Positions 686-39,626 of a DNA stretch of 64,000 bases are shown piece by piece. Below the pieces are notes generated by a model, which searched no databases, was not told where the DNA came from, and saw only the letters and a program-made list of their open reading frames with translations. Each line of letters opens with the position of its first letter. Position 1 is the stretch's first letter. The position numbers and the translations under genes were made by a program. This stretch comes from Ehretia macrophylla (taxonomy: Eukaryota > Streptophyta > Magnoliopsida > Boraginales > Ehretiaceae), in contig CM075770.1 in the NCBI GenBank assembly GCA_037974665.1, positions 96,840,850 through 96,904,849 of the forward strand. Reading direction: 5' to 3'.

Positions 686-1606
686 CTCATAATGTCATGA
701 CTGCGAATGTGAATGCGAAGCGTAATGTTGCAACCTTTAAAATAGATATGGTAACTTTCGTGTTACACTGGGCGGCATTGGGGTTGCTAGCGATGACACA
801 ACTATCGATATTCTATTCTCTATCCCGAATGAATGGAGTATTTCATAGGGTATGGGTCATAGGTTTTGGTGTACTTCTGGGGTACAACTATCGATGTTTA
901 GAGGAAGAGTTTGTGATGGTATATAGGGGACAACATCAACAAAGTGAACGTATCCTTAATGAATGTTTACTTACTTTGTATTACTTAAGCTATTTGTACT
1001 TGTTGCATATTATTGTTTCATGGCATGTTTTCGAAAGAGGTTTTCAAATTAAAATTGCTTTTCAAAACCTCCCTTACTCCCCTCTCACTGAGTTGGTGGA
1101 AACTCACCCTATTTGCTAACATTTCATGTAAGCCCGAAGTGGAGTTCATGCCTCAGGAAGTTGAGCCTGAGCCTTTTGCTAATGAGCCTTATCCGTGATG
1201 TGTTTGTTGGTGTTGTCTATGATGTCTAAGAGTTATGAACTTTATGTTGTAATGAAACGTTATTTGAGTATGTAATATATGTTGTTTACTTTAAAGCCTT
1301 AGAAGTTTGAGAGACTTTGTTGTAATGTTTCAAGTCCACTTAGCTATATGTATATTGCTAGTCTTGTGGTGGTCTATTTTGAACCATTGTACCTATTATG
1401 ACCGAGTTTAAAGTTGGGTTGCTAAGTGGATATGTAAACCTTATTACATGTGATATATTCAGGTCATGTCTTGTTTAGCTCCTTTTGTTGTCAATGAAAT
1501 GTTGAACATGTTTATATATCCAAAGTGTCATGTTTCAAACGTTATAATGCCCGTTTTTCGTCGCGTCTTGACTTGGTCCTAGGCAGGGTCGAGTTGCGAC
1601 GTGACA
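686..1606 (+). mobile_element. 3' part of a 5' LTR, Del/Tekay-type gypsy (fossil)
   Basis: The right border ends in TGACA, six bases before a tRNA-iMet primer site, so this is the end of a 5' LTR. It carries two blocks shared with the other long gypsy LTRs in this window: a GGGCGGCATTGGGGTTGCT block near 770-790 and a small hairpin at 1089-1106. The left part of the LTR is missing, cut by the copia fragment. It is only distantly like the LTR at 7089, although that one lies at the other end of the same remnant. Long open frames across it have no protein-like features. Confidence 0.75.
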
Positions 1607-1611
1607 GATAG

Positions 1612-1623
1612 TGGTATCAGAGC
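1612..1623 (+). other. Primer binding site (tRNA-iMet)
   Basis: TGGTATCAGAGC complements the 3' end of plant initiator methionine tRNA, the usual primer of copia and Del/Tekay elements. It lies six bases after the LTR end, which fixes that border and the plus orientation of this element. Confidence 0.9.
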
Positions 1624-1668
1624 ATGTTTAGCGTGAGCCGGGATATGACCCTCGGTCTGTGGGGTAAA

Positions 1669-4665
1669 TGTGACGCCTGAGCCCGAGTGCATACATATGT
1701 CATTCATTTGTATATATTTGTGTGTATTTATTTCTTAAAAAAGCTTATTTAAAAATAGTTATTATTCATAAGAATTTTCAATTGTTTTATTTTCTTGGTT
1801 TTGCATTTTCCCATATTACTTGACATCTAGGAGGCATGAGAAAATTAGAATTACGTGCATAGCATATCGGGAACTCGAGTTATAAAAAAGTAAGTATATC
1901 ACATGAATAGTGATTTTCAGCTTTTTAATTAAACAACCAATGATCCATTTGCTTATTACTTGAACCATTTTGCTAGTATTTAACCCATTTAAAACCCACC
2001 CATTGACCAAATCCTTTGACTACCCTTTAAAACACCAATCTTACCCAAATAGTGCATTCAAAAACAAAAAAAAAGGAGAAAAATAGGCCTTTTGGCCGTG
2101 AGCTCAAAGGAGGAAGAAAAAACCATTTTTCTTGCATTTTGATCTTCAAGCTTTGTTGGAAGTTAACTTTGAGCATTCATAGACCATCCACGACCATTCT
2201 TCTTCAAGCTTTGGTAAGGGTTTCATCCATATATGTTGATTTTTATACTTAAACCCTAAGTGGCATTTTTATAGATTTGTGAAATATGTTTAGTTTTAAG
2301 CTTACTCTTGCTTATATTATTGTTTATGGAGTATGTAGAGCATAATTATGTGATTATATTGCATTTTCATTGGTTAGAATTGGCTAAGGCTTGTTGGAGA
2401 AGATGATGAATAGTGTTTTTCTTCAAATTTAGGAAAATGTTTGCAATGTGTGTTTATATGCTTCTCGTAGATGCCATAAATGTCTAGGAGGGCAAATGTG
2501 GTGTTAAATTGGTTAGAACATAGCTTGGAATTGGAAGATTGTGATTTGAATCAAAGGGGCCTAAATCGTAAAGTGTTGGCAATGTGTAATTTGAGTTGTT
2601 CTAGGGTCCTAAGTGTGTGAAATAATGATCGGGGTGTATTTATGGTATTGAATTGTGGATTGTTTTAAGGTGCTGTAGTTCAAATGTGCTAAGGGGCCAA
2701 TCGGAGTTTATTAATAGTTGTATTCTAAATCGAGGTTTCTATGCATTTAGAGGGATTATAAAGTGTCATTAGAAGTGTAGAATAACTAGCTTGTGAATTA
2801 TGTAACTCGTATTTCAATTGAGCTCCAAATTGTGTTAAAATACAAAGGGGAAAACTGCTAAAGTTAAGTCTAATGTTAGTAATTGACCTTTATGTGATTG
2901 GTTAGGTGCTTAAAGATGCTTAGTTAGAGTATTTGTTCATTTGGTGAAGTTTCATGAATTGTGTGGATTTGGCTCCTTTGATCGAATATGTCTAATTCTT
3001 GTTTAAATTATTCTTGTATCTTGTTATACTGCTAAATTGTTTATATATAATGTGAACTTTATTGTATTGGCTCTGAATGACATCTATGGGAATTCTTATG
3101 ATAAGTATGTGTTTTACTACGTGCTGCTAGGGGTTAATTCATTGAACCAATTCAAGGTGTTTGAGGGTAGATTGGCGCTAGTTTTTACATCATTTGGCTA
3201 TCTAGAGATGAGAGATTCATTTTACTTGGCATTTTAATTGATTTATTGCTTTGTATTAAAATGGATATTGTGTGGTTAATGTGTGTTTGAGCTATTTTGT
3301 AGAGTTATATCATTTTAAAGTTATATTGTTTATAATTGCTTATGTGCGAGGACAACCTCTTTTGTTGTCCTCATTGTGTGCTTAACGATTTATATACTTA
3401 TCAAATTGTATGTTTGTAATTGTTTTTAAATATTATATTATAGTATCGAATCATATCATGGTTGCGCAACCATTTTAGGCATGGTAGCATCGGGGAAGCC
3501 GGGCAGCATCGGGCTTGCCGGTATACCTCAGCCACTACCCATTGGAGTGATTGGGGTTATGCCAGCTTATCGTTATCATTATTATATCGGGTTTCTGTTC
3601 GTGGTTCGTGAATCGTGGATCGTGGTTCGTGCTTAAGGACAACATGGTATCCTTATTGTGTAACTCTCGCTTGGGTCTTATATCCTTGGAGAGTTACTTG
3701 ATATCCTTTTTACTACATGTGTAGCTCTTGCTTGGGCCCTATGTCCTTGGAGAGCTATACTTGATTGTATTCCCTTATATGTCTTATTGACGCGTAATAT
3801 TGATTGATTCGTTTGCATTGATGTGTTGACTCTATGACTATATTGTTTTCTTGTTATTAATGTTATATGGTATTGCTATTGAGTTTATAACTCGCTACCC
3901 TGTCTTGAGTTTCCTAAAATATGTTACTTAACTTTATTGTTGAATTGAGTATTTCATATTATTAATTGATTTTATGATTCATCAACATTGCACGAAAACC
4001 TTGGCGAAAACTCCCCGGATTATTGTTCCCTCCCTCACTGAGCAACGTGGTTGCTCACTCCCTATTTCTAATCATTTCAGGTTCAGTGTCTTTAGAGTCT
4101 GAGGTAAAGAAAGCTCGGGATTCTCCTTGATCAGATTTTCTAGGTTTAGCTGTTTGTTTCTATGTATACTTGTGATAGTTATGTTTCTTTTGAGGTCTGC
4201 ATGTGTTTTATATGTTGGTTTATAAGAAATGTAATGTAAAGTTAAAGTTTCACATGATTTGATAGGTGTAGTTGGTTTGTAATAACTCTAATAATTTACT
4301 TTATTGTCTAGTTAGCTTGCACGCTTGTATGGATTTACGAAGGATGGTTGGAAGACTTAAAACCTAAGATAATAAAATAGATTAGATTAGAATGGTAAGA
4401 TAAGCAGAATTATGATATAGAATTTCAATAGTTAATGAAATGCATGCTTGTATGTTATATTATGTTAATAGAAAGGCTCAGATGGCCTTGTAGATTTGAG
4501 AAATTATGAAATGAATGTCGTATATTGTGGTTGTGGTCATTTCTTCTGCGTGCAGGAATATGGATAGATCTAGAAACAGGGGAGACTCTGGTCATTTTTT
4601 CTCATTTTTCGTGACCTTGGGTATTGGATCGGGGCTCCGGTCTCGTGAAGGATCAGGGTGTTACA
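1669..4665 (+). mobile_element. Solo LTR, long gypsy family, with target duplication (fossil)
   Basis: This 2,997 bp unit begins TGTGACGCC and ends GTGTTACA. It is flanked on both sides by the same five bases, GTAAA (1664-1668 and 4666-4670). There is no internal region, so it is a solo LTR left by LTR-LTR recombination. It sits between the primer site and gag of the surrounding Del-type element and is therefore younger than it. It carries the shared GCATCGGGCTTGCC block near 3510 and the hairpin at 4039-4057. Its 3' end resembles the minus-strand LTR that starts at 21370, so the two belong to related families. Confidence 0.93.
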
Positions 4666-4670
4666 GTAAA

Positions 4671-7075
4671 AGTTTTAATGTGAAATTGTTTTGAACGAAT
4701 ACATGCATGCGTTATGTGTTAAGTGGACAAAATGTGAACAACATGCTTTATGTGCTAAATGTGATTTACATGATCAATGTACTTTATGTGAAGCTTGTTT
4801 CTTATGTGATATTGATTGCTCATAAACCTCTCCAACTGGTTAGGGAAAAATGAGAAAATATATGATGCCCTCGAGTAAACTGATAAAAGGAAGATCACAT
4901 TTGTAATATTCTTGCTCGATGGTGATGTTGAGCAGTGGTGGAGAAGAGTTGAGTTAAGATGGGAGTTCCAGAACACTCTGTATTTATGGGTTAACTTCAT
5001 GAAGGAGTTCAGAAACAACTAAATCCCGAAGATTGCTCGGGAGAGAAGAGAAGAAGAGTTAATGTCCTTTAAACAGGGCAACTTGACGGTCACAAAGTAT
5101 GAGGCCACATTCAACAAATTGTCTCATTATGCACCCGAGTTGGTGCAATCTACCAGTCGGAGAGTACAAAGATTTCTTAGGGATTTGAGACCCAAGATTC
5201 AGGATAGTCTGGCTTGATTTCAGTTCACCACATACAGTGGGGCTCTTAATGTCGTTGCTAGGGTTGAAAATAAGAAATATGAAGTTCGGGCCGAGTCCAG
5301 TCAATAGAACAAGAGGCCGTTTCAGGTACAAAGTCAACAGAGATCATATCAGCCTCAGACATAGTAGAGGCTGACTCAGATCCAAGGCCAGTACAGGTAG
5401 GTTGTTATGAGAACTCAACAGACTGGTTTAGTTGCTTCATCAGCACAGGGTTCCTCAGGGGGTAGTGTTGCTACACCGACTCCAGTGTGTGCTTTTTGTA
5501 ACAAGAGGGGCAATATTGAGGCCAATTGTTGGAAGAATTCTAGCAAATACATAGGATGTGGTAGTGATCAACATAAGGTAAGGGATTGCCCGAAATTCAA
5601 GACCGGACAAACGCAAGCAGCAAGTAAAGGTAATTAGGGTAGGCCTATAAGCAATGCACCTCCATAGCAGCTAGTACAGGCTTAAGTGTATGCTAGTGAT
5701 TAGGAGGCGTTGCCTAAGGTGGCGGCAGTAGTTGAAGGTAATTTTTTAATTCTCAATTAGTTGATTAAAGTATTAATTGACCCCGATGCCACCCATTCAA
5801 TTATTACACCCCTTTGTGAAAGTTGCCTTATAAGATTGAAATTAGCACACCTATAGGCATTAAATTTGTAACTGAATTGATATGTAAAACATGTAAGATT
5901 TAAATTAAGGGTTAAGAATTTCCTGCTGATCTTATTTTACTTCCTATCGAAGACTATGAGATTATTTTGGGTATGAATTGGCTTGCTAAGTATAATGCAC
6001 AGTTGGATTGTAGAACAAAAGTTATGAGGTTCTAGTTACCAAGTCAGGCATTGGTTGAAGTGGCAGGGAATCGAGATTCTTCGAGGAGTTTTATTATTTC
6101 CTCAACTAAAGCTATTAAGCTTGTAAGAAAAGGGTGTAAAAGTTATCTTGTTTATCTGATTAACAAGCCATCTGATAAGCTAAAGTTTGAAGAAGTTCCA
6201 ATTGTTCAAGAGTACCCAAATGTATTTCCCAAGGAGCTACCATGATTGCCACCGGAGAGGGAGATAGAATTTGTGATTAATGTGCTGCCAGGTATACAAC
6301 CTATCTCAAATTTTTTATATCGAATGGCTCCCACAGAGAATCAAGAATTGAAAACATAGTTGCAGGGGTTATTGGAGAAATGTTTTACTCAACCAAGTTT
6401 ATTGCCGTGGGGAACACTTGTATTGTTTTTGAAAAAGAAAGACGACACTTTGCAGTTGTGTATCGACTATTAGGATGAGGTTCAGGAGATGAAGGTCATT
6501 GATTCAACCTTGTTGCCAGAGCTTGTGAATACCATTGAGAATGTCCATCTTATTCGTTAGAGGATGCTTACAACTCAGAGTAGACAGAATAGTTATGCTG
6601 ATAAGAGAAGACGAGATTTGGAATTTGAGGTTGGTGATTTCTTGAAGATCTCTCCTTGTAAGGGTATTGTTCGGTATGGTGAAGGTGGGAAAGTGAGTCC
6701 GAGGTACGTAGGGCCATTTGAGATCGTTGGCAGAGTTGGCAAGTTGGCTTATCTGTTGGTTTTACCGTCAAGTTTGTCATAGGTTCATGATGTATTTCAT
6801 GTATCTATGTTGCAGAAGTATCATACCAATCCTTCTCATGTTCTAGAGGCAGAGCTGTTGCAGCTTAGTAGAAATTTGACTTATGAGGAGCAGCTTATTT
6901 GTATTTTGGATCAGTCAGTTTGGGAACTGCATTCGAAAGTGATTCCGATGGTTAAGGTCTTGTGGTTTCATCATGGGATTGAGGAGGCTACTTGGGAAAG
7001 ACGGGATCAGATTGAGCAGTAGTATCTAAAGTTGTTCAGCTGAGAATGTAAGAATTTCAGAGTCGAAATTATTTT
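4671..7075 (+). mobile_element. Del/Tekay-type gypsy internal region, gag and partial pol (fossil)
   Basis: Recognisable pieces appear in order. A gag capsid-like domain (about 4830-5330) includes a FLLDGDVEQWWRR-like block. Zinc-knuckle sequence follows at about 5480-5610. Protease-like sequence (about 5750-5990) has a degenerate ATHS block. The start of reverse transcriptase (about 6190-6480) contains YPNVFPKELP. The integrase C-terminus (about 6560-6780) contains VGPFEIVGRVG and is followed by a chromodomain (about 6890-7035) with VKVLWFHHGIEEATWE. Most of RT, RNase H and the integrase core are absent, so there is a large internal deletion as well as many small breaks. The chromodomain and iMet primer site point to the Del/Tekay chromovirus lineage. 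It cannot move by itself. Confidence 0.88.
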
Positions 7076-7088
7076 AAGGGGGGAAGGA
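7076..7088 (+). other. Polypurine tract
   Basis: AAGGGGGGAAGGA lies directly before the TGTGAGACC start of the next LTR, the expected site for plus-strand priming in a plus-oriented element. It sets the 3' LTR start at 7089. Confidence 0.85.
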
Positions 7089-9176
7089 TGTGAGACCGAA
7101 GCATGCATTTTATGTGCATTTATTTATTTTAAACATTATTTGGTAGTATTATGTGCTAATTATATGTACATCTATTTTAATATACCATATTTGCATTTAA
7201 ATTACATTTATACATGTAAATATAGTCTTATTTTATTAAGTCTACCATATTGGACTTGTTTTACCCTTGGAAATATAATATATACATATAAACATACAAA
7301 TAAGATAGAAAAATGCATAGTATACCAACTTTGACCATGTTTGACTTAGTTTATTTATCTTATTTGACTTTGTTTGACTACCATACATTATATTTTACAC
7401 CTATACATTATATTAGCATAACAAAGCAAAGGAATAAGCTGGAAACACGAGGTGTCGGCCAAAGAAAGAAAAAATAGAGAAAAATAGAAAAACAAGGTTT
7501 TGATCCTTTTGAAGAAGAATTCTTGCAATTTTAAGTCAAATCAAAGTGGAAATTGCTCACAGTTTGTTCTCCATAGTTGGTTCTTGCTATATCTTGCATT
7601 TCCAACAATTTTTAGGTGAGAGTTTCAAGTTCTTGCATGTGTATGCTTACTTTAATTTATGAAAATTGTATATAAATGTGTTATAAATGCTTGTAGAAAT
7701 GTATATATGTTGTAGTAGTGATTTAAGAGGTTAATATATGCATTAGAACTTGTTGGAGGAAAAAATATGCGTTATATGCAAACTTTGTTAATTGGAAGTT
7801 GAGAATTTGATATGGCTTTGGTGTTTATGATTATATATATGTGATTGGGATATGATCTCATGGCTTTGGTATGAATTTGGTGAATTTAGAGGTTTATTTT
7901 GATGAATTTCTTAAAATTCTAAGCAAGGTGCAATTGTAGAGATTGGCTTGTTTAACTTGGTTCATGCTTGGTTTTGCTATTGTAATGAGTTCATAATGCA
8001 TTGTAGTTGGTTACTATATTGGTTGTGTTGAGGTTATGTGTTGTAGAGATTCATAGGATGGTTAAATGATGTCAAAAAGTTGGAGTTGATTTGTAGAGAT
8101 CATGTTCTTTCAAGGTTTAATTGGTGTTAATGTGTAGAGATCATGTTCTTATGAAGCTTAAATGGTGCTAATGTGTTGTAGAGATCATGTTCTTTTGATG
8201 GTAAAATGTTGGTATTAATGTGTTGGATATATGTTTTATTGAAGCTTAATTGTTGAGTAATGAATGAGTTGTTGGGTAATGAATATGTTGTTGAGTAATG
8301 AATGCGTTATTGAGTAATGAATAAGTTGTTGAGTAATGAATGAGTTATGAGATAGTATCGTGTTACAACCTTAGTCCGTCATGGTAGTATCGTGTCGTGC
8401 TGGGCGGCATAGGGCTTGCCGGTAATTTCATGACTACCATGTACTAGTCCTTTCTCTCGTGTGGTCGGTTATGGCAATGGTGAGATTGGTCATAGATTCA
8501 TGTACATCATGAGTGCACAAGCAGGAAAGAGAAGTATTGAGTTTGTGGTGAAGTTATAAGGGTCGGCTTCAACAAATGTTTTAAAGTGGTAACCTTTTAA
8601 TGTGATGTTTAGCATGAATGTTTCAAGGTTGTTAAGCGAATGTGAGTACGTGGTTACTAATGTGATATGTTGTTTCTAATGTGCTCAAACAATTTTCAGG
8701 TTAAAGCTTTCAAACTTCCTTTTATCCCTCCCTTACTGAGTCTGTTTAGCTCACTCCTCTTTAATGTATATTACAGGTATTCATGATGTTGTAGTAGTTG
8801 ATGTACCTAACTTTGAAACTATGTTTTACTTGCTTTAGTAGTTGTTAATGTACAGTGTAGTATTTGGCTAATTTGAAGTAATGTGAAGCCTAGCTTGTTT
8901 TGATGTATCTATATGGTTGGTTATGTTAGGTTATGATCACAACTAGTTAGGATTATATTTTGTCGTATGTTTATGTACAAGTATGCTTTAACTATGTAGA
9001 GGGTGTTGTCTACTTTTGTCAAGCGAATGAATGAATGTTTAGTGTATTCCACAAGAGATGTGTTGAAATGTTATATATGAATGACGCGAACCTTTGAGAA
9101 TGTATGTTGTGTATTCTTTGTTTGTTGGTTGTTCATATTATAGGCGTTATAATGTTTGTGTGTGATCGCTACAAGG
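7089..9176 (+). mobile_element. 3' LTR of Del/Tekay-type gypsy, interrupted (fossil)
   Basis: Starts TGTGAGACC right after the polypurine tract. It contains the shared GGGCGGCATAGGGCTTGCC block near 8400 and the hairpin at 8737-8753. At 9177 it is broken by an Athila/Tat-like LTR on the other strand. A 55 base piece at 18037-18091 that ends GGGCGTGACA looks like its missing tail, which would give a total near 2.1 kb, close to the 2.2 kb solo LTR at 12840. Confidence 0.82.
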
Positions 9177-10880
9177 TGTGCGTATAAAATGTGTGCAAAA
9201 GTAACCAAGTTAAAACCCGCAAGTGCATTGATAAACGTAGTATAGTGTGCTTTGAGTGTGGGTCCGTATTTCCACAGGGAGGTCCCTTAGTTAGTTCAGT
9301 GAAGAAGTGTGTGTGAAAGTGTCAAAGTGAGTGTTAGAAAGTAAATGATAGTTTGGATGGTTGATAAAATAAAAGAAAAAGAAACTAAATCTAGAGTTAA
9401 AGTTGGGAGTGTAAATATGGGAAGGTATTTTTAAATCTTGGATTAATACTAAGGCTAATGATCTAGGCTCGGAAATAGGATTCTTTAGTTCTATGTTGGG
9501 ATTAGGCTACAAGCTCTTAATTCTATTAATTCCCTAAGTCAAGTTAATTACTGGTTGAACCTTGATTATAGGTATCGTTCTATTTACGAGTCCGTTATAT
9601 AGCCGTAGTATAGATCTGTCTTTGTAATCACAAGTAACCAGGATAACAACTTAAAATAGCAATTAATAAAGCCAAAAATAGAAATTATGGTACAACCTAT
9701 AATTTCATGGAAAGTACGGTACAACCAGTACTTTCACTATTATAGCATGGATATATGATATGAAGGCATACCTATCACAACATCAACTACAAGTATAATG
9801 AACTGACAAGTAAACAGAAATTAAATCAAATCATATATAACATCAAATTAAATCAGTCCAGATCTACGACTGGTAAATCAAAAGACCATTAATATAATCA
9901 TAAACACGAATTAAGCAAGCATTATACCGGCGTTCAAATATAAGAGAAATTAAAGAGATGTTCCCCGATAAATGAAAGTTGAGGTTTGAGGTCGGATTCT
10001 CGAGCACAGCTATGAGATTTCTTTCCTTTTCCCTTGCTCTGGAAATTCGGGCTTCACCTCCGCCATATTTTTCCCAACTACTAACTATCTACAAAAACAT
10101 AATTTAAACTACCTAATTTATAAACTGAAAAACAATTAAAAACCAATTTTATAATAAAAATAATATATTTTTCCGTTAGGGGTTGGGGGGTATTTATAGG
10201 AAATTTTTCAAGGGGGCACTCAATAGGCGCACTCGAGCGCGCTTCTACTCCATCACTGGATTTGTGCCATGTGGCATTTCGTGAAGGTGGTGGAAGATTC
10301 TATGTAGGGCACTCAAGCGCCCAGGGAGGCACTCTCGAGAGCGCCTCTGCTCGTCTAATCAGAATGCGCCACGTTGGCACTTTGCTGGTCCAATCAGGGA
10401 TGTTTGGCGGTCCACGTGGACCAATCAAGAGTCATGGAAACTTCCGGCAAGGGCGCACGAGTGCCCAAGAAGGCGTGCTCGAGCGCTCAAGAAGGTGCGC
10501 TCGAGCACCCAAGAAGGCGCGCTCGAGCACCAGTGTTTTTTTTTGGGCGCTCGAGCGCCAGTTTGCAGCTAATTTTGACTTTGACCGGATGTTTGACCAA
10601 GGCTTTTCCAAGTTGTTTTCATCGTTCTGAGTCCATTTTCGTGCTTGGTCTGGCCAAATTGTTTCTCTACCGGCTCTATTTATCCACCGATTTCTCGATT
10701 CTTTGCCGTCACACAACTCTTTGATTTGCATTTTGTCGTTTTGAGTTCGGTTTCTTCACTTTTCAAGATCAACTACATTGCAACAAAAGTGCATTAAGTG
10801 TTGCATTTATTCCACAAGTTAAGATGCAAATGTAGTATAAAAACAGTGGTTTGAGTGCTGCAAATATAGTCATATCAACA
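9177..10880 (-). mobile_element. 3' LTR of Athila/Tat-like gypsy (fossil)
   Basis: This block is repeated at 16397-18036. In minus sense it starts TGTTGATATGAC and ends TTTTATACGCACA. It is preceded by a CTTGCTTGAGGACAAGC motif and a purine stretch, the usual sequence before the 3' LTR of Athila/Tat elements. It also carries the block read on the plus strand as TTTCCACAGGGAGG, typical of this LTR group. It was probably inserted into the Del-type LTR on its left. No clean five base target duplication is visible; GTGTG occurs at both outer edges but does not fit the LTR ends well. Confidence 0.8.
10215..10560 (-). repeat. GC-rich CTCGAG-centred minisatellite in LTR
   Basis: Within the AT-rich LTR, short palindromes built on GCGCTCGAGCGC recur, with a near-tandem 22-24 base unit of the form CAAGAAGGCGCGCTCGAGCA around 10460-10535. 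The partner LTR (17440-17720) has fewer copies, which accounts for part of the length difference between the two LTRs. Open frames here on both strands are by-products of the GC-rich repeat. Confidence 0.75.
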
Positions 10881-12839: not shown

Positions 12840-15045
12840 TGTCACGCCTCGACCCCAAACTTGTGGAGGTTAAGGCCAAAACGTGACGTGTCAAAAAGCT
12901 TAACACCTATAAGATCATGAATTAACAACCTAGTGTACATTAATAAACCACAAGGAACTTCAAAAGATGTCCCAACTCCTGGGGTACTACACGATATCAA
13001 AACCTGTTCAATATATACAAGACCTAATTCCTGCAAGCTTTACATGATACAACCCATTCAACATCCTCAAGGTCTCAAAAGAATAAGTATTAAGTTAGTT
13101 ACATCCCCAATTATCCAAAAGAATTGTTACAAGGTAGCTAAGAATACAAGTCCGTAATCAAGTCTAGTACAACAAGAAGAACGTCCACGAGAACAAGCAT
13201 GAATCACAACAAGCAGAAATCTGTCTCATCGCACAATGCAACTTCACCCTCGGCATGTACAGTCGGCTCGGGCTCGGCCTCACTTGAAATAGTTAGAAAA
13301 AGGGTGAGCTACACCTAGCTCAATGAAGGATATTGGGAAGGGGATTTTCGCAAGAGTTTTATCCTTTCAAAACCATTTGGGAAAAACCATGCCATGCATA
13401 CATAATCAATTAACTAGATAACAACAACATATAACCCAACTCTCCAAGGGCTAGGGCCCAAGCAAGAATGGTAACATAAGATTAAAATGATACAATTGTC
13501 TTGTAGATGCTGGAGACTATCGGCCTTGAATCAATCATCATCATCAACCCCTTACATCATACCATAGGGTAATCCGGATACACCTAATTCCTACGACCCA
13601 CATCTCCGAGGGTTGAAACCCAAGCAAGAGTGGGATTAGGGTCCATGGTAGTCGAGACCTATTGGCAAGCCCGATGCCGCCCAGTGGATAATGAATGCTA
13701 CCATGCCCAAGAGTGGGTGCAACTTTGCCGGGCACACATAATCCAATCATATTTGTATAATATAAATAAACAACAAGAGGGAGGGCAACAAAGTAGGTTG
13801 CCTTCGTTATGCACTCAATATCAAGTATCAATGAAAAAGAAGTTCATGAGGAATTCAAGAAGTATTTAAGACCACATTATCATATCATGCATTTTGAACC
13901 TTGATAACATCATATCTAACATGCACTTTGATCCCACAAGAGTATGCATTTGATTGCAATTGAAAATGACACAAAATGGGGAAAAATAGGGCATCTGGTC
14001 GAGTCATCCTGTCGACTCAGTCAACCTGATCCACTCAACTGGATCATGGTCAATAATATTCGGTCGACTCAGTCGACCTGATCCAGTCAATTGGATCCTG
14101 CAGAAAAATGCACGAATTTCCTTTTATTGTCTCTTCTTACTATGCTACTTAATTCCAATCCTTAACCATTTCTCCAATCCTTAACCATTTCACCACACAA
14201 GTTTAGCATGCTTTAAACATCACATAAATGCAAATCCAACCTTGAATCAAACAAGCACCAAGCACAACTCATTCTCTTCAAAGCAAACAAGTTAACATAA
14301 ACCCTCAAAACTCAATCTTCCATTTCTTCCCTCTTTCACCAACACAAGCATACTTCACCATATATCATATCTCATATAGCTCTCATCACAACTTATCATA
14401 ATCACCAAAAGCTATAAAGACAAGATCAAGACATATCTAATACTACAACAACCATTTGAAACCCTAGATAACTCTAATCATGCTAATTAAACATATAAAA
14501 CCCATAACATGAATTATATGACTTTTGTAAAGCATTTCAAAAATATCCCTCACCTTAGTCTTGAATCTAGAAGGAAGAGGAGCAAAAAATACACTTGAAA
14601 AATGCTTGAAAATGCAAGTGTGAGCTAAAAGATGGCTTGAAATTGATTGTTTTCCTTCCTTCTGCTTCTTCTTCCTCTTCTCTTTCTTTCTCTTTTCCTC
14701 TCCTTCTTCAGATCGTGTAGGTGTATGTGTGTGTAGTATATGTATGTTTTGTATATTTTAGTTAGGTGAGAATATCTAAATGGCCAAATGACGAGAGTGC
14801 CCCTCTAACTAATTGTGTTTTGCTAGTTTGCCATTTGGTCCAATTTTAACTAATCTAGATAGTTAGTCTTACTCGATAAATTTTAACTAATGCCTACGAT
14901 ACCTAAAATACTTAATTGCACGAAAAATGATGCAATGCAGGTAAAATGAGATAATTGCACATAAAATGATATAAATGCACATAGAATGATTTATTTATAT
15001 GTTATATGAGCTGAATACACGTGGGGTCTCGTGACGGGCCTTACA
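12840..15045 (-). mobile_element. Solo LTR, Del-type gypsy, with target duplication (fossil)
   Basis: A 2,206 bp unit that in minus sense starts TGTAAGGCCCGTCACG and ends GAGGCGTGACA. It is flanked by identical CTCTT on both sides (12835-12839 and 15046-15050). It lies in the gag-like part of the Athila/Tat fossil and is younger than it. It has the shared block (minus, near 13660-13685) and a hairpin at 13305-13322. A duplicated GTCGACTCAGTCGACCTGAT-like stretch lies at about 14000-14100. Confidence 0.93.
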
Positions 15046-15050
15046 CTCTT

Positions 15051-16348
15051 GGTCAATTTGATACAAAAGTTGTTCAATCTCATTAACTTCTTCTTCATGT
15101 GTCAAGAAGGATGAAAGAATTAAAGTAGACTCAATAGACTTATCCCGAAAGAGTATAAACTCTAAAGAAGTGTGTGCACTCATCTTCCTTGAAGAGGAAT
15201 CAAAGTCAGGTTGAGTCATGATATCACTAAGGTCATCATTTCCTTCTAAGTGAGGCATTTCCTCAAATTCATTTTCCCTATTAGATTTCTCCCAAATAAT
15301 CTTGCTCATTTCATTAGTTTGTTCACATGTTATTTCAAAGGAGGTTCACAATAGGCTGAATGTGATGCTAATCATTAGTCCAACTAAGTGTATTCTCGAC
15401 TAGTTGATCTAAAGATTGAAGCATGTGAGCATTGGATTCGACAAGTTGAGAAAATTGGTCAAACTTGTCACTAACTATGGTTTCGGGAGGAGCAGTTTCA
15501 ACCCAATTTTCCTAGTGATCATTTTGCTTGAAAATATTAAATAAAGGGTCACCAGAAAAGTTAGATTGAGAAGATGTAGGGACTTGACTTTCAAAGTTTT
15601 GAGAAAAAATTTCTTGATCCCAAAGTGATGGCTGGTTTTGCCATCCTGGAATGTGTGTCTCAGACATGTTGTCTACCTCAATCCTAATGTTATACTCTCT
15701 ACCCCTATTATCTCCACTAAACACTTCTACCTTATCAACCCGGTTTTGGATAGTTTTGTGATGAACAAAACTAGTTTGGTCTTGCGAACTCATGATAGGT
15801 TGAATAGGGTATTCGTCTTTCTTCCAACCATTTGCGTTCTTGGGTATTTGACCGATTTGGTCTTGTAGCCAATCTATGGATTGGTGGTTGGATTCAACAA
15901 GTTGGACAAGTTGGCCAAACTTGTCATCGAAGTTTGGTTTAGGAGAAGTGAATTCAACCGAGCGAGGATAACAAAAGTTTTGATTGAAAGAATCACTTTC
16001 AAAACTTTTATAAAACTCGGAAGAATTAGGGTTTTGAGATGCATCATTTTCAAAAGTTTGAGGCAGAAAAGATGTATTACTTTGATCCCAAAGTGAATTT
16101 TAACAATTTTTCCACTCTGGATTATATGCATTAGAGTAAAAATCATTATTCGAAAAATAACCCTAAGTAGTAGAATCATGACTATGAAAGAACTTGGGAC
16201 ATTGGGGACAATTTACAAAGGTATGCCCAAATTGATAACAAACTTCACATGTATTTGGGATAGGGAGTGGGGTTTTGTTATTAAAAGCCCATTGATTGGA
16301 TGACTTATCAGGTAAATTTAGAAAACCATTTTTATCAAAATGAGTCAT
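15051..16348 (-). mobile_element. Athila/Tat-like gag remnant with CCHC zinc knuckle (fossil)
   Basis: Near the 5' end in minus sense (about 16190-16230) lies a CCHC zinc knuckle, CEVCYQFGHTFVNC. It is followed by a Gln/Asn/Ser-rich tail in which a module with W-x-NQ-x-SLWDQ and, further on, DKF-x-QLVQLVES occurs twice (about 16130-15850 and 15660-15420), so the tail has an internal duplication. The zinc knuckle lies unusually close to the 5' LTR, with no primer site or leader between, which suggests a deletion. Broken in several places. Confidence 0.65.
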
Positions 16349-16396
16349 ATTTCCAATCGTCTAAATTTTTCCACAAAAACTGGAAATATGACTCAA

Positions 16397-18036
16397 TGTG
16401 CGTATAAAACGTGTGCAAAATAACCAAGTCTTAATAATCCGCAAGTGCACGAATCATGTAATGTAGTGTACTCTAAGTGCGGAGTCGAATTTCACAAGTA
16501 GACTCCTTAGTTAGTTCAGTGAATAAGTGTGTGTGAACATGTCTAAGTGAGTATTGAAAAGTAACGGATAGATTGGGTGATTTAAAAAGAAAAGAAAAAA
16601 AACTAAGTTAACTAATCTAGAGTTAGAGTTAGGAGTGTAAATATAGGAAGATAGTATTTAAGCTCGGATTAATACTAAGGCTAATGATCTAGGCTCGGAA
16701 ATAGGATTCTCTAGTTTGATGTTGGGATTAGGCTACAAGCTCTTAATCCTATTAATTCCCTAAGTCAAGTTAATTACCGGTTGAACCTTGATTATAGGTG
16801 TCGTTCTATTTACGAGTCCGTTATATAGGCGTAGTACAGATCTGTCCTTGGAATCACAAGTGACCAGGATAACAACTTAAAATAGCAATTAATAAAGCCG
16901 AAAGTAAAAATTATGGTATAACCTATAATTTCATAGAAAGTACCAGTATTTTCACTATTATAGTATGGATATATGACACGAAGGCACACGTATCACAACA
17001 TTAATTACAAGTATAATGAACTGATAGGTAAACTGAGATTAAATCAAGTCATATATAACATCAAATTAAATCAGTCTAGATCTAAGATCGGTAAATCAAA
17101 AAACCATTAATATAATCATAAACACGAATTACACAGGTATTATAACGACGTTCAAATATAAAAGAGATTAAAGAGATGTTCCTCCATAAATAAAAGTCGA
17201 CGTTCGAGATCGGATTCCTGAGCACAACTACGAGATTTCTTTCCATTTCCCTTATTCTGAAAATTCGGGCATTACCTTTGCCGTATTTTTTCCAACTACT
17301 AACTATCTACAAAAACATAATTTAAACTACCTAATTTATAAACTAACAAACAATTAATAACTAATTTTATAATAAAAATTATATATTTTTCCGTTGGGGA
17401 TTGAAGGGTATTTATAGGAAATTTTTCAGGGGCGCAATCGAGAGCGCATCAAGTACCCAATAGGCGCGCTCGAGCGTACTTCTGGTCCATCGCTGGATTT
17501 GCGCCACATGGCATTTCGCGAAAGTAGTGGAAGATTCCGTGTAGGGCACTCGAGCGCTCGAGCGCCCAAGCGCGCCTCTGCTCTTCCAATCAGAATGCGC
17601 CACGTTGGCACTCTGCTAGTTCAATCAGGGATGTTTGGCGGTCCACGTGGACCAGTCAGGAGTTGTGGAAGCTTCCGACAAAGGCGCTCGAGTGCCGTGG
17701 GTGGCACGCTCGAGCGCCAGTCTGCGGCCAATTTTGACTTTGACCAGATGTTTGACCAAGGCTTTTCCATGTTATTTTCATTGTTCTGAGTCTGTTTTCG
17801 CGCTTGGTCTGGCCAAATTATTCCTCTACGGGCTCCATTCATCCACCAATTTCTCGAGTCTTTGCCGTCGTACAACTCTTTGACTTGTATTTTGTCGTTT
17901 TGAGTTCGGTTTCTTCACTTTTCAAGATCAACCTACATTATAGCAAAAGTGCATCAAGTGTTGCATTTATTCCACAAGTTAAGATGCAAATGTAGTACAA
18001 AAACAGTGGTTTGAGTACTGCAAATATAATCATATT
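16397..18036 (-). mobile_element. 5' LTR of Athila/Tat-like gypsy (fossil)
   Basis: Partner of the LTR at 9177-10880: the same TGTGCGTATAAAA edge, then closely similar sequence throughout, including the CTCGAG-rich minisatellite (17440-17720). The outer edge is less well kept, matching only to about 18036. By eye roughly nine bases in ten match outside the minisatellite, so the insertion is not recent. Confidence 0.8.
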
Positions 18037-18091
18037 AGTGTGTCGTTGCGACCGGGCTTGGTTCCTGATGGACCAGGTTTTGGGCGTGACA
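18037..18091 (+). mobile_element. Probable LTR tail of the interrupted Del-type element
   Basis: GTGTCGTTGCGACCGGGC followed by a block ending TTGGGCGTGACA resembles the last 55 bases of the LTR that ends at 1606 and of the solo LTR ending at 12840. This suggests it is the part of the 7089-9176 LTR displaced by the Athila/Tat insertion. Confidence 0.6.
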
Positions 18092-18907
18092 GTTTAATTG
18101 ATTTTGTGCTACATCTTCTTTTCCACTGAAATTATATTCACCTAATCTTTAACTTATCGTGCTACATCTTCTTTTATTTCATTTCACTAATACTAAAGCC
18201 TGCTGATCTTTATGGCTTGCACATATTTAGTTGTAACAGTCAGATTTGGGAATGGCAAGGTGAGGATTATGCTATTGAAGATAACACCAACATTGATGAG
18301 ATTAATTCTTAAGCTTTTTGTTTAGTAATCAACAGATCTTTGGATGAATTCATTGGTGTTGAATACAGTTTTACTAAGATATACAGATGTATCTAAATGC
18401 ATACTCGGTGGAGGGAATGTGATTGAACATTTTTCTTATATGTTTGAGGATGGAACTACCCCTTTTAATGACTGTGGAGATCTGGCTTACAATGGTTCAA
18501 ACTGTGGTAGGATTTCTCTTTTCTATATGAATGCATCAATTTTCTCCAACTTGTATCCCCTTTTATGTAAATGGCACTGGTAATACGAAAAATTATATAT
18601 TATAAGGGTAGATAATAAGGTAATTTCATACAAACGATACTTCTATACGCAAAACATTATTTGGGAGATTCAATTACATTTCTTGATAGAAGCCTTGGAC
18701 TGATTCCAAGTTTCTTATTAATTGTTTTTTCTTCTAACTCATGAGATTTTGGTGTATTTTTAATATTATTTTACTGGTTATATTGTGTCGAGAGAAGAAA
18801 TTTGGCAATATAAATGTAAATGAGAAATTTAATAAATTAAATTGCTCTAAATATTTTCAAGCAATATTAGTGCGTTATTTATGACATATTTGTTTGTGGT
18901 GTAATAG

Positions 18908-18995
18908 GAGATGACTTTGAAAGAGTATGAGAAAGTACAGAAAGAGAAAATGAAAGCTTTACAGGCATTAAAACCATGTGAGCGAGATGATTAGA
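18908..18995 (+). pseudogene. Captured exon of an RGG-repeat / HABP4-type RNA-binding protein
   Basis: Directly after an AG that looks like a splice acceptor, the frame reads EMTLKEYEKVQKEKMKALQA and continues LKPCERDD to a stop. Plant RGG-repeat nuclear RNA-binding proteins (Arabidopsis RGGA and relatives, HABP4/PAI-RBP1 family) carry a conserved EMTLxEYEKVLEEKxKALxA block ending in EER or SER. The match in order and spacing is strong. Only this short exon is present, and the frame closes soon after the conserved block, so it is a fragment and not a working gene. It lies inside a CACTA end, which fits gene-fragment capture by this transposon class. Confidence 0.7.
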
Positions 18996-19159
18996 AGACA
19001 ATAGTAGATCATTTTAGCTTTTTTTGTAAATTAATATTATTTTTGTATTAGTTTTTTTTTTTGTAAATATTATAAATCTATTGTAAATATTAATTTTTTT
19101 TTGTTAATATAATTTTTTTTAATATATTTATAATTTTTTTTAAATTAAATAATTAATTA

Positions 19160-19591
19160 GCGACAGAATAGCTACGACAATATGTAGACAAAAAGCTACG
19201 AATTGACTACGGATATTTGGCAATAATTGGCTACGGATTGACCACGGAATAGGGGACTACCAAACATCTATGGATACCAATCCGTAGTCGTGGGCGACGA
19301 CCGATTTACGACCTAAACGGCTATGACTTTGCTACAAACATTAATAATTAATAAAAAAAGTCAAAATTTTAATTGGCTACGGATGGGCTACGATCATTTT
19401 GCTACGAAAGTCATAAAAAATAAATACAAATTAATTTCCGGAATTTGATATGGATGGGCTATGGACTATCAATTTGGTTACGGGGCTTTTAGCTACAGAC
19501 GTTATTTTGTAGCCTATCCATAACCCGTCCCAAGTTGGCTACTACTAGGCTACGAAAATTGTCCGTAGCGCCAGCCTTTTCTCTTGTAGTG
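19160..19591. repeat. CACTA subterminal repeats (CTACGGA motif)
   Basis: At least ten copies of GGCTACGGA/GCTACGAA-type motifs on both strands, at irregular 15-60 base spacing, up to the terminal CTCTTGTAGTG. In CACTA elements such clusters bind the accessory transposase. The motif differs from the GGAGACGG motif of the element at 24037, so the two are separate families. Confidence 0.75.
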
Positions 19592-19781
19592 TTAACTTTT
19601 ATATAACTAATAATCCCATATGGATGTTTCACTTAATGACGAGTTAAATATTCCCATCTTGATTAGTTTCTTATAGATTTGTTTGGCTACTTTGGTATAA
19701 CAATTGGATTAATTTTTTTGAAGTGGACAATACCTTTCAAACAAGCATATCACATGTTGTAAAAGGTAATCCTAATCTAAT

Positions 19782-20042
19782 AAATACATTACATGATTAA
19801 AGTTATAAAAGAATGAAGGAATATGAAATCTTCATTGTAAAGGCACTAACGTCAATGTTGAACATCCTAAATATATTACATGATTAAAGTTATAAAAGAA
19901 TGATGGAATATGAAATATTCATTATAAAGACACTAACTTCAATTTTGAGCATCTTAAATACATTACTTGATTAAAGTTATAAAAAAATGATGGAATAAAA
20001 AATCTTCATTATAAAGACACTAACTTCAATTTTGAACATGTC
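19782..20042 (+). repeat. Tandem repeat, three copies of 87 bp
   Basis: Three consecutive copies start at 19782, 19869 and 19956. Each opens with AAATAYATTACNTGATTAAA and ends near AACATC. The copies differ at a few positions each. The surrounding sequence (19592-20186) is otherwise AT-rich with nothing recognised. Confidence 0.85.
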
Positions 20043-20186
20043 TCTTTTCAAACAAATTTGATTTTTAAATTATCATAAGTTTCATTGTAAAACTATCACT
20101 GCATTTCAATTGGTTTGTTGAGTAAAGCTTTTACTTTCCTTTAATGCATTTTGATTTAGTGTGCTTATTATTGTTAGTCTTTTAAC

Positions 20187-20447
20187 ATGTTTTATTGCAA
20201 CAATATGGATGAAGTTGACCAATTAAGGTTACGATATCATGTTAACAAGATGTGCATAAAAGGAAATTTCATAATGAGTGGCTCCATGGGAAATGATAAA
20301 TATACAATCATGAATATTAATAATGGTCCTGAAAACTGTAAAACTCCTTTCACAATTTGGTGTAACACTTCAAATGTTAAAATAATTCATCCAAGTATGA
20401 TAGATAACCAGAATGGAAGTGCTTTGAGTTGCATCATCGATGGGTAA
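20187..20447 (+). CDS. Unassigned short ORF, possible gene-fragment exon
   Basis: An 86-codon frame from an ATG, with mixed amino-acid composition that does not look like translated repeat. It contains CIKGNFIMSGSMGND and ends in CIIDG just before GGTAATC, which could be a splice donor. I recognise no family. It may be an exon left from a captured or decayed gene, or chance. No promoter or partner exon is evident. Confidence 0.2.
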   Translation: MFYCNNMDEVDQLRLRYHVNKMCIKGNFIMSGSMGNDKYTIMNINNGPENCKTPFTIWCNTSNVKIIHPSMIDNQNGSALSCIIDG

Positions 20448-21369
20448 TCATCGATCTAATTGTGTTAATTTATAAAGTTTTAGATGTCACGTTTTCTAAT
20501 ACCGTGCATTAAAACAATATACTAAGTTTAAAAATTACTTCTTATAATTTCACAATCCAATTGAAAGTTCATATGATCCATTGATTGAATATGATAGCTA
20601 GATTCCTCCTTTGTCCATCCATAATAAGAAATATAGAACAATAGGGCGTTAGAATTAGTCAACATTCTACATATTTTGGAATAGATAATGCAATCCTCTT
20701 AATTTAATCTAAGTTTTCCCCTTGAGTCATGGTTTTAAACTCATGCATTACTATGTTAATATATTTTTATCTTATATTTTTTGTTTGTTGTATTTTTAAA
20801 TGAAGCGAAATAAATTTTATATGGTGAGTTCATAGAATACAATTTATTAGGTGTATATAATTCCAGTGCAACAGGATTACTTCTTTTCAATTTTCATTTT
20901 TGTTAACATTTTCATATTTAATATCATCATTGGGATAATATATTTTACTATTTTATATTTCACTTTTGATTGTAGATAATTCATGAATAAGGATCAATGA
21001 ATCAAGACGAATGTACAAATAAGGAGAAAATATATAATGTTAGAAAACCTTTTACAAATGAAAATAGTAGGTCAATATGATTTATCTTATCAATTTCTCG
21101 AGCACCATCTTCTTTGTTAGTATAACTCTATTGAGAGATATCTCAAACGTTGAATGTATGAAACCATCTATCAATACTTTGATCTATTTTATCTTTAGAA
21201 ATAGAGAAATACTAAATACCACTTTATTTTTATCACCCAAATACCACTTTCTATGTGTATTCTTATTTGGCATACTAAAAGAAGAAAGAGAAATTAAAAA
21301 GTTTATTTTTTTAGCATACCAACTAAACATCCATGTAGGAGGTAGTATTTGGGTAATAAACATAGAGTG
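20448..21369. other. Unassigned AT-rich sequence
   Basis: I see no gene, terminal repeat or tandem structure here. Open frames on both strands near 21077-21525 run into the LTR at 21370 and are not supported as genes. Confidence 0.5.
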
Positions 21370-24036
21370 TGTAACGCCCCGATCCCTCACGGGACCGGAG
21401 GCTCTAATAACCATGCTATTCTCAACCCAATACCAAATCCGATCACAAAATTTTAGGGAAAAACGGACAGAGTTTCCTTTGTACCGCGGACATTTCTCAA
21501 ACCTGTAAATGCTCAAAATAGCCACAATATACTAAAACAAGCTTTTATAATTAAAATTCAAGGTTCTAGGCCATCCAAGCCAGGAGACAAACAACAGCTC
21601 CAAATCACACATGCATGCACCCAACTTAACTTTTCATTAAACCTTTTTAACATGCCATTCTATGATAACATTAGAGCAATTTTAGAAGTTGAAATCAACA
21701 CCTCTAAACATACACACCCAAGCATGCAAGAACTAAAAGGAGAATTAAAGTTATTACAAGCCATAATATCTCAAAGCTAACATTACAACCAATAACTTTC
21801 AACTTACAACTACAAGAATATACATAGCCTTAAGGCCACAAAATAGATCATGCTATAGCAATACAAGTACACCATGTAACAACAAGAAGACAAATCCACC
21901 TTAGACAACAAACACATAACAACTAGGGCAAAGGCTCAGCCTAAACTTCTTCCTCTTCCACTAGCACCTCAATTAGCTGGGGATCACCCTCAACACTTCC
22001 TGAAACATATATCGAGGTATGAGCAACCACTGTTGCCCAGTGAGGGATATAGTATCCTCGGGCGTGCAATGCAACAGGTAATACAGTTAAACAACAATAA
22101 CAATTAGACAATTAAAGAAACAATGATAGCTTAAATAACCACACATTTAAAAGGATACATTTCACATAACCCCTATACACCAATCTTCGCTGGTCTTCAT
22201 TCACGATCCACGAACCACGATCACGATCACGATAAGCCGGCATCCCAAACACCAAAGGGTACTCCGGATGTACCCAATCCTACGACCCAACACCCCCTGG
22301 CAATCTCCGGACCAGGCGAGTGAGAGAATAGGGTACGGAGCTAGAGCAACCAACCCTGGCAAGCCCGCTGCCGCCCAGAGAGGCCCATCGCATCCGCCCC
22401 GACGATAAGGTTGCGCAACCATTGACTCGATAACACAGGAAGCAATAATAATAACAATATAACAAAATAAGCCGATATACAAACAAGGAGGACAACAAAA
22501 GAGGTTGTCCTCGAGCACACACATCATCAATCACGCCATACAATGAAATATAATACATTCATTAGTCTATAATTGCTAAACTAATCCAACTAAAACACTT
22601 AAATCACTTAGTATCGAATATTTAGCATATAACAAGATAAGACACATAGAATGCACATAGAAATGATCCCTCACCTTTTAGGAAGCCAAACCTGCGCGAA
22701 TTAAGCCAAGATTCCCTCAATATTCTCCAAAAGCATCAATTCCCTTCAATTATCACTACCTAATACAATCAACTATATGCATAAGAAGTGATTTCTTATT
22801 CTCAACTAAAGCTAGTTCATAAAGCCATTAAATTATCCAACTCTATTTGATTCCCTTTAATTCACATAACTAACAATATATTTCATGGTTTAACAATCAT
22901 TCTAATCAATATTTGAACAATACATAAACTCAAGTGATCACATATGCAACATTCTTTAATTTTCAAGTATTAGACAAAGACAATAGCATAATAAATAACA
23001 TATACATAGCCATTCATATAAGTAGAAACACTATATAACATCTAACCAATAAGTTATATAAGCGTATCTTTACATATATAATGCAATTAATAAGCAATAT
23101 AAACATGTTTACTCAATCTTTAACTAGTATCGATATAACTTAACTCACAACTTCTCCGAATAGATGAACTTGTTACATAAGTACATTTAAACATTTATCC
23201 AATCAATCAAGAATCAACTAACAACAATTATTACCATGGTTCATTACTAGTTCCTTTAGTCCATTCTAAATTCATACTCAACCAAATCCATGTAAACCAA
23301 GCAACTTAATTCACGAGACTTCACTACTATAATACGTACACTACACAAATGCATATAAACATTTAATTACTCAATTATAAATCAATTATCATGAGATTAA
23401 CTATGCGAACACAAAGGGGTCAATATTATACTTTTCACAAAACTTAACCAAAAGCTCACACATACCTTAGAATAGCATTTAGACACGCTAGGAGCAACTA
23501 AAAAGCAATACAAGTACTAACGCAATTAATTCATTCATTTCCCATTTGTTCAACTAGGCTATTTAGCTTTATATCGGAATTTAATGATCAAGTTAAGCTA
23601 GCTAACCATCCTATCAATCTAAGGATACCTAAATACCTCATTTAGAGCCTCCAAATCATAACCTAGAGCACAAGTACACGAAAACACCAAAAATGCCTCT
23701 TTGTGGGTTTACACTACAAGTACCAATTTCGGAACCCAAACAAGCGAAACGAAAGCACTTCTAAGGTTTCAATACTTAATAAAGACTAGCCATAACCTCG
23801 AAACTTGCCCAGATTCAAGTTAAACCCGAAACTCCTTATTAAAGTAGCCTATTTTTATCAAATTTCTCAAATTTTGAACATAGCAAGTGCAATTAACATT
23901 TTTCCCACGCTTATGGACCTAATTAGCAACTACTAGAAGCCTCGAATCGAATTAAATTGTAACTTTTTTCGGAAACCCTAGTTTAGCACTATTCATCATC
24001 TTCCCCAAGTGTCATTTTCATTTTCAAGCATTCAAC
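21370..24036 (-). mobile_element. Long gypsy LTR, 3' portion, split by CACTA (fossil)
   Basis: In minus sense the LTR ends GGGATCGGGGCGTTACA at 21370 and continues upward to 24036, where a CACTA transposon splits it; it resumes at 38927-39626. It carries the shared block (minus, 22357-22380) and the hairpin at 22020-22039, plus a nearby TTGCGCAACCAT motif also found in the solo LTR at 1669. Its end closely resembles that solo LTR. No primer site follows the 21370 end and no coding region adjoins, so it is probably a solo LTR of about 3.4 kb, although no matching five base duplication is visible. Confidence 0.8.
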
Positions 24037-24048
24037 CACTACAAGAAA
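24037..24048 (+). repeat. CACTA left terminal inverted repeat
   Basis: CACTACAAGAAA directly after target duplication AAC. It pairs with the complement at 38912-38923. Confidence 0.95.
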
Positions 24049-24054
24049 TTTCGG

Positions 24055-24560: not shown

Positions 24561-24774
24561 TCTGTCGCAGTTTGGGTTTTTTTTTAAATATATATATTTT
24601 TTTTCATAAATATAATTCATAATCAACCTGTTATACATTCCAAAATTTTTAACACGTTGATTAAATTAACGTAATTATATTGTAATGTCCATATTTTATG
24701 TTCGAAAGTTAAAGTACACATCATAAAACATTTAGTAATAGATATAATACATTATTATAAAGTTTGAACAATTA

Positions 24775-27441: not shown

Positions 27442-27559
27442 GACTGTGTTTGACAAAATACATATTCAATTTAACATATAAAATAATAAAGATACATGTA
27501 ATTTGGAAACAATCATTCGTCTAGTACATAACACATATATATATAATGCAACAAAATAA

Positions 27560-31810: not shown

Positions 31811-31845
31811 CTGAGACGTATTACGATTTGTCCAATAGTGAAAAC
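31811..31845 (-). other. Possible 5' UTR exon of TNP2
   Basis: In minus sense a 35 base block is preceded by TTTCAG and followed by GTTAGT, and an acceptor-like CTACAG lies 11 bases before the TNP2 ATG. This would fit a short leader exon and an intron of about 555 bases. It is inference from splice-like sites only. Confidence 0.3.
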
Positions 31846-38923: not shown

Positions 38924-38926
38924 AAC

Positions 38927-39626
38927 AAGCATTTTAAACCATCAAACATATTCTATGAAGTCATTAGAGCATATAAGAATCAACGGAACAAGAATTAAAC
39001 CACTACAATATTAGATCACAAAAATAATAATACAAACTTTAATTGAATTTAATACAAAAATATAATGCACCCTCACCTCTTTTGAAGATCAAAGAATGGT
39101 CTTAAGGTCATAAGGATGAAGCACAACCAATTTGGGAAACAATGGAAGCAAGAATGAAGCAAGGAGTAATTTTTCTTTTTGAGAAGTTACTATTCCCGTA
39201 ACTCTTTTTTGGCCATTTTTTTGACCCCTTTTTTTTTTTGTTTCTTGGCTTTTAATATTCTCATAAGATGGTCAAATGGTAGGTCAAGCAAATAGGGTAT
39301 TTTAGTAAGGGTAAATGGGTCATTTGGGTGATTAAATTTCAGCAAAATAAAATACCAAAAATCTGAAAAATCTGAAAAAAATCTCGCTGGTACTATTCAT
39401 CAGACATTTCGTGAATTTTTTCCCGTTGATCCCGATATGCAATGCACGCACAGTCAGGGGCTATAGTCCCCTAAAAATATTTAGTATTTTATAAAAATAT
39501 AAAATACATGAAAAGAAATATTTGAATTTATGGAAATATAAAAAAAAATAAAGTAATTAGCTAAATTACATCTAGTTAACAATTTAATGAATGCAATTAG
39601 TGAAGTGCTGGGTTCGGGGTGTCACA
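38927..39626 (-). mobile_element. Long gypsy LTR, 5' portion (fossil), second half of the split LTR
   Basis: Continues the minus-strand LTR of 21370-24036 beyond the CACTA element. In minus sense it begins TGTGACACCCCGAACCCAG at 39626, a typical long gypsy LTR start. The bases after 39626 do not repeat those before 21370. Confidence 0.78.

Follow-up and report, generated by a model that had tools for sequence, protein, structure and literature searches.

Each of five long terminal repeats (LTRs) in a 64-kb stretch of the Ehretia macrophylla genome (C7:96,840,850-96,904,849; hereafter the window) carries a small hairpin, and we favor, with moderate confidence, the explanation that this hairpin belongs to a 3' splice acceptor within Del/Tekay-like LTRs, of which it is the structured portion that contains the branch site. 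As judged from their sequence, such LTRs probably carry an unrecognised, structure-controlled intron of ~1.2-2.2 kb. Our analysis was confined to this one genome, which comprises 1.58 Gb in 20 contigs; sequences from outside the window are denoted by numbers beginning with L.

The hairpins had been reported in a first-pass annotation of the window, and all five are present at the coordinates and on the strands given there. LTR1, LTR2, and LTR3 carry the hairpin on the plus strand at 1089..1106 (TGAGTT/AACTCA), 4039..4057 (TGAGCAAC/GTTGCTCA), and 8737..8753 (TGAG/CTCA plus a T.G wobble), respectively, whereas LTR4 and LTR5 carry it on the minus strand at 13305..13322 (TGAGCTA/TAGCTCA) and 22020..22039 (TGGGCAAC/GTTGCTCA, the outer stem with one G.U pair). 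A loose expression, [CT]T[CT]A[CT]TG[AG]G-N4-20-[CT]TCA[CT], which was derived from these five hairpins themselves, had these five sites as its only matches in the 64 kb, both strands included. The LTRs had been described as poorly alike, and they do differ among themselves. The inner stem is identical in LTR2 and LTR5, so that the window holds fewer than five independent cases. Stem strength is uneven, with LTR3 having four pairs and one wobble and the minimum-energy fold of LTR1 being another structure, and taken singly none of the window hairpins folds significantly better than its shuffles (z -1.78 to +0.79). An Rfam search of window positions 1-40000 returned 0 matches above the gathering score. 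The idea that the hairpin is coding sequence was rejected, since the hairpins differ in total length by single bases.

Genome-wide, the pattern CCTCACTGAGN{6,14}CTCACYCC, in which the lead and the outer four pairs are fixed and the inner segment is free, gave 590 matches (290 + 300), whereas the reversed pattern used as a control gave none (0 + 0). We analyzed the surrounding sequence in 45 contexts, namely the five in the window and the flanks of 40 of the 100 matches listed (20 on C1, 20 on C2-C4), chosen mostly for unlike inner segments. The first AG ends 19-27 nt past the stem in 41 of the 45 contexts, and 22-25 nt past it in 36. Between stem and AG lies a G-poor pyrimidine tract (C.33, T.42, G.06), the base preceding the first AG is C or T in 31 contexts (A in 12, G in two), the site reads AG|GT in 25/45, and the sequence downstream of AG is purine-rich (A+G.68 at +20 to +40). 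The 3' arm of the stem together with the next base reads CUCAC or CUCAU, 19-27 nt ahead of the AG end, which fits the plant branch motif. In sequence the contexts thus resemble a 3' splice acceptor, with a tract, a YAG, and little variation in the distance between the AG and the branch motif. The roles suggested earlier for the hairpin were polyadenylation, packaging, or export; its surroundings point to a splice acceptor instead. Polyadenylation as the principal reading was set aside because an acceptor accords better with the near-constant spacing of the AG, a judgment made without a systematic search for polyadenylation signals.

Within the window, four of the five LTRs keep AG at the expected place, as CAG in LTR2, LTR3, and LTR5 and as CAAG in LTR4. 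The putative branch motif, tract, and AG span 4054..4080 in LTR2 (plus strand; CTCAC, with AG at 4079-4080, 23 nt after the stem), 8750..8776 in LTR3 (plus; CTCAC, AG at 8775-8776), 13283..13308 in LTR4 (minus; CTCAC, first AG within CAAG), and 22000..22023 in LTR5 (minus; CTCAT, AG at 22000-22001). LTR1 has lost the acceptor AG (CATG), and its first AG lies further on. Among the relatives of LTR1, L014, L015, and L016 read TTTCAGG, L018 reads TTAGG, L017 CAAG, and L013 CACATG. In a minority of contexts (L045, L050, L054, L070, L077, L086, L015, L016, and L018) the acceptor AG is directly followed by GTRAG. Such AG-GTRAG sites could be read as acceptor and donor at one point, like a recursive splice site.

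The first-pass annotation placed the hairpins correctly and overlooked both this acceptor-like tract with its AG and a donor-like site upstream. Donor-like sites were scored with splice-donor weights, and branch motifs were compared with the plant branch consensus. All four window LTRs that retain their 5' end have GTRAGRG 492-550 nt from the LTR start, out of 24 occurrences of this motif on both strands of the window. These sites are GTAAGGG at 2214..2220 in LTR2 (plus strand, 545 nt into the LTR), GTGAGAG at 7616..7622 in LTR3 (plus), GTGAGGG at 14547..14553 in LTR4 (minus, 492 nt), and GTGAGGG at 39070..39076 in LTR5 (minus, 550 nt). The putative introns would run from 2214 to 4080 in LTR2 (1867 nt) and from 7616 to 8776 in LTR3 (1161 nt), with lengths of ~1270 nt in LTR4, 2190 nt in LTR5, and 1192 nt in L016. 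In many of the LTRs inspected, a donor-like (AG|)GURAGRG thus lies ~1.2-2.2 kb ahead of the acceptor; GTGAGRR occurs at comparable positions in L014, L015, L016, L035, L061, L065, L067, and L068. The last four belong to ten further LTRs that we inspected over 2.4 kb upstream, where their donors are clear and those of L060 and L063 doubtful. In the 130-nt segments flanking 15 donor-like sites, the two doubtful ones included, ATG is found 19 times upstream of the donor (expected 42) and 70 times downstream of it (expected 47), a pattern that would suit an untranslated leader exon beside an intron. Coding sequence is not apparent in the leader ahead of the donor, and no long reading frame is shared upstream of the hairpin.

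The first-pass annotation had further proposed that the compensating changes in the stem reflect a selected RNA structure, and that this should appear as covariation above background. Both expectations are supported within this genome by covariation and arm shuffling of the inner stem and by predicted pairing; in the 40 genome contexts the outer four pairs are fixed by the pattern. The first 100 of the 590 matches, which are the matches listed and lie on contigs C1-C4, contain 70 distinct inner segments. Among these, the bases are complementary at pair 5 in 66/70 (C-G 40, T-A 21, T.G 5), at pair 6 in 63/70 (A-T 33, T-A 29), at pair 7 in 47/68, and at pair 8 in 16/30, with wobbles counted. When the arms were shuffled in 2000 trials, the observed pairing of pairs 5, 6, and 7 was never reached; pair 8 was not significant, its value being reached in 105/2000. 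All four combinations of C-G or T-A at pair 5 with A-T or T-A at pair 6 are present. In a G test with average product correction (APC) over 1326 column pairs, for which 42 of the 45 contexts were used and three with AG distances out of range were left out, pair 6 ranked 1 and pairs 5 and 7 ranked 11 and 12, the column pairs above these two being mostly neighbors around AG. The outer four pairs are predicted to pair with a mean probability of.74, compared to.30 with the inner segment shuffled, and the value is at least.5 in 36/45 contexts. An inverted repeat would look alike at the DNA level if it worked as DNA, be it as a binding site for a dimeric protein or as a cruciform. We regard this as highly improbable, since the inner arms change both letters and stay complementary, the T.G found in 5/70 at pair 5 pairs well in RNA and not in DNA, and both orientation and spacing to AG are near-constant.

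How the stem might act on the acceptor can be pictured as follows. The branch site would be CUCA(C) in the 3' arm, hidden when base-paired with UGAG, which would make the acceptor weak or switchable. Part of the RNA would then stay unspliced and serve as the genome for reverse transcription, and part would be spliced for expression; the purpose of weak splicing is here suggested by analogy with retroviruses. The outer stem would be fixed because U2 small nuclear RNA must be able to read CUCA(C), and the inner stem would need pairing only and hence drift through compensating changes. An alternative that we consider possible at best places the branch point in the lead, CTYAC, immediately 5' of the stem; the hairpin would then lie between branch point and AG, shorten the effective distance, and aid splicing. 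The lead reads YTYAY in 5/5 window LTRs, the stem plus 19-27 nt would give a plausible effective distance, and in yeast, according to the accessible text of one study, 21/88 introns have downstream stems of at least 6 bp (PMC12350175). On the other hand, the lead A is replaced by G in L024 (plus strand) and L035 (plus), which read CTCGC or CTCGT, and in L030 at 4776 (CTCGC), with the 3' arm still CTCA in all three, and conservation of the lead among the genome matches is uninformative because the pattern fixes it. A 3' arm with CCCA in place of CTCA has 8 matches vs 590.

Several observations weigh against a branch-hiding acceptor in these LTRs. The CCCA change also unpairs the stem, so the count of 8 vs 590 does not separate branch use from pairing. 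YTAAY, a rival branch motif, occurs 23 times 8-13 nt before the AG end in the 45 contexts and would be a candidate branch site were splicing to use a later AG. No convincing donor was seen within 2.4 kb upstream of L059, L062, L064, and L066, and a probe for the exon-exon junction had 93 candidate hits, none of the 40 that were scored spanning the junction, which suggests either that spliced RNA is not commonly copied back into the LTRs of that family or that it does not exist. In 9/45 contexts, LTR1 included, the predicted pairing of the outer stem is below.5. Pair types also partly follow the flank tree, with 14, 7, and 17 changes for pairs 5, 6, and 7 compared to shuffled-label means of 18, 19, and 24, so that the sequences are not independent. 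This partial agreement, like the sharing of stems between related copies such as LTR2 and LTR5, would be expected if the pairing had come down from a small number of founding LTR families without being maintained. We give that account very little credence, since pair types changed repeatedly on the flank tree, also when built from the 3' side alone (9, 4, and 9 changes), and since all four combinations of pairs 5 and 6 occur. Finally, past ~+60 of the acceptor the sequence becomes U-rich and AUG-rich again. The U-rich stretch resembles a plant 3' end region, as might be the case if the hairpin were a selected RNA element of other role (3' end formation, packaging, or export) next to which the acceptor-like tract is incidental or secondary. 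This seems rather unlikely to us, given that the AG spacing, the G-poor tract, the preference for AG|GT, and the donor-like site upstream are splice-site features.

Unselected relatives were sampled as 20 stretches of 10 kb at fixed genome positions. These gave 13 usable rows, of which four were left out as looking like other elements, and the remaining nine LTR ends, anchored by the primer site, were judged by eye. Hairpin and acceptor are kept in 5/9, clearly in L024 at 5561 and L035 at 1584 and in decayed form in L036 at 6866 and L030 at 4776 and 7951; in one more of the nine (L024 at 8059) the acceptor is kept and the 5' arm has decayed. The hairpin is absent in 3/9, i.e., two near-identical L031 copies, which are apparently internally deleted, and L036 at 6068, which is apparently truncated. 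Absence from most intact relatives, which the first-pass annotation had named as speaking against its proposal, is therefore not what this small sample shows. An automatic scan for the hairpin before the primer sites found none in the 13 usable rows; we think its greedy fuzzy match faulty, as clear cases are visible. A pattern search of a collection of genome contigs gave 0 matches. Ten loci matched in viral contigs were dismissed as chance matches, as they have neither the conserved LTR box described below nor a primer site.

What a spliced RNA might encode is a more speculative matter. Tentatively, and with the preference still for a structured acceptor as such, the acceptor may open a last coding exon in the LTR: through splicing from an internal donor to the acceptor of the 3' LTR, an element protein such as Gag would acquire a stop and, at its C terminus, a conserved acidic tail, and the hairpin would set how frequently this occurs. 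In 55 contexts, the frame beginning after the GT of AG|GT has an E+D content of.189, compared to.068 and.078 in the other frames, reaches a stop after a median of 15 codons, and has a recurring VP motif; examples are EPEVEFVPQEVETEPYANEPYP (L014, of the LTR1 family), ESNMVYVEYVPDEPVVDKLKA (L045), and EAELEQVPEENVLVDEPLE (L024). The acidic frame is absent from a good number of the 55 contexts and stays open only slightly longer than another frame (a mean of 15.5 codons before a stop vs 13.4 and 7.9), and purine-rich splicing enhancers could account for part of the signal. When differences in the tail were sorted by codon position, no clear bias emerged (39/31/46 in 11 pairs, one of them mispaired; hand-estimated p ~0.2). 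The frame often shows a recurring (E)FVP or YVP, which we take to resemble poly(A)-binding-protein interaction motifs. Acceptor-like stretches are also found at the start of gag, where the ATG follows directly in L016 (...TTTGGTTCTAAG|ATGG) and L095 (...TTTTGGTTGTAAAG|ATGG) and after 1 nt in L030 at 7951 (...TTTGATTAGTAG|AATG); the remaining elements examined do not show such a stretch or are broken there. Because the leader between primer site and gag is rich in ATG, a clean gag message would result if the LTR donor were spliced to gag. If the acceptor does open a last exon, plant LTRs would hold an accessory reading frame, in the manner of the spliced genes of retroviruses.

The LTRs themselves show the traits of the Del/Tekay type, i.e., great length, TG..CA ends, and the primer site TGGTATCAGAGC, which we take to be the initiator-Met tRNA site. 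The Del/Tekay name comes from the first-pass annotation, and the LTR type fits it. LTR1 (plus strand) ends at ~1606 and is followed by the primer site at 1612; in L016 this site lies 524 nt past the hairpin. LTR2 (1669..4665, plus) runs from TGTGACGCC to GTTACA. LTR3 (plus) starts at 7089 and is broken near 9170; next to this LTR lies an integrase end whose SH3_Tf2-1 match exceeds the cut-off (E 1.9e-9) and whose Chromo match stays under it (13.3 bits, cut-off 25.1). No pol was found attached to the other four window LTRs, for which no profile search was made. LTR4 lies at 12840-15045 and LTR5 at 21370-39626, both on the minus strand, and the lengths of LTR2, LTR4, and LTR5 are ~3.0, 2.2, and 3.4 kb, the last with an insertion excluded. 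This insertion in LTR5 (24037-38923) is presumably a DNA transposon of the CACTA type and contains a long open frame at 28677-31310 (minus strand) and tandem repeats of ~400 bp at 32721-37133. Two further pairs of long direct repeats with LTR-like spacing, 9363-10023/16589-17241 and 48422-49884/56951-58390, have no match to the loose hairpin expression on either strand.

All five window LTRs and L016 share a second conserved box, which has 17 invariant columns and reads much like GGGCGGCATCGGGCTTGCC. It lies at ~769-790 in LTR1, ~3500-3520 in LTR2, ~8402-8422 in LTR3, ~13665-13685 (minus strand) in LTR4, and ~22357-22377 (minus) in LTR5, and in LTR3 and LTR4 it is flanked by CATGGTAG and CTACCATG. 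This box is possibly another structured element.

Tekay (Del) elements are found across seed plants (PMC6317226, as far as its accessible text goes), and our searches of an open-access library showed neither an LTR intron nor such a hairpin. Splicing of retroelements is itself already known; what appears to be new here, as read from sequence, is a structured retroelement splice acceptor placed inside LTRs. Should this be correct, many plant repeats, solo LTRs included, would hold a ready-made exon boundary, and the LTR acceptor could help explain the splicing of host genes near such repeats. Plant LTR elements are generally without introns, with exceptions such as Ogre and EVADE, and BARE1 is also named in the available part of one review (PMC12786077), in which splicing is described for plant elements other than Tekay (Del) only; the Ogre intron also appears in the accessible text of a classification published in 2019, whose main text never uses the word hairpin (PMC6317226). 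As far as these sources describe them, Ogre, EVADE (ATCOPIA93), and BARE1 are alike in that splicing gives a subgenomic RNA beside the full-length one (PMC12786077, PMC6317226), which in our case is a prediction. They differ in that here the LTR would contain the donor as well as the acceptor, the latter with a covarying hairpin. Models of LTRs by Benachenhou et al. (2013; PMC3601003) likewise contain conserved modules, and stem-loops can conserve longer R regions; the accessible part of that paper has no plant Tekay/Del LTR hairpin or intron, and its main text is without the word splice. In yeast introns, a small stem near branch site and acceptor has been proposed to affect splicing, according to the part of that study at hand (PMC12350175). 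Those stems belong to yeast host genes, whereas the stem described here seems to contain the branch motif itself and sits in the LTRs of plant mobile elements. The closest parallel in purpose would be human immunodeficiency virus type 1 (HIV-1), for which, in the accessible text, inefficient 3' splice sites are required for unspliced RNA and a weak branch site and tract preserve it (PMC1697824). There the weakness comes from the sequence, whereas in the Del/Tekay-like LTRs it would come from the hairpin, at a site internal to the LTR.

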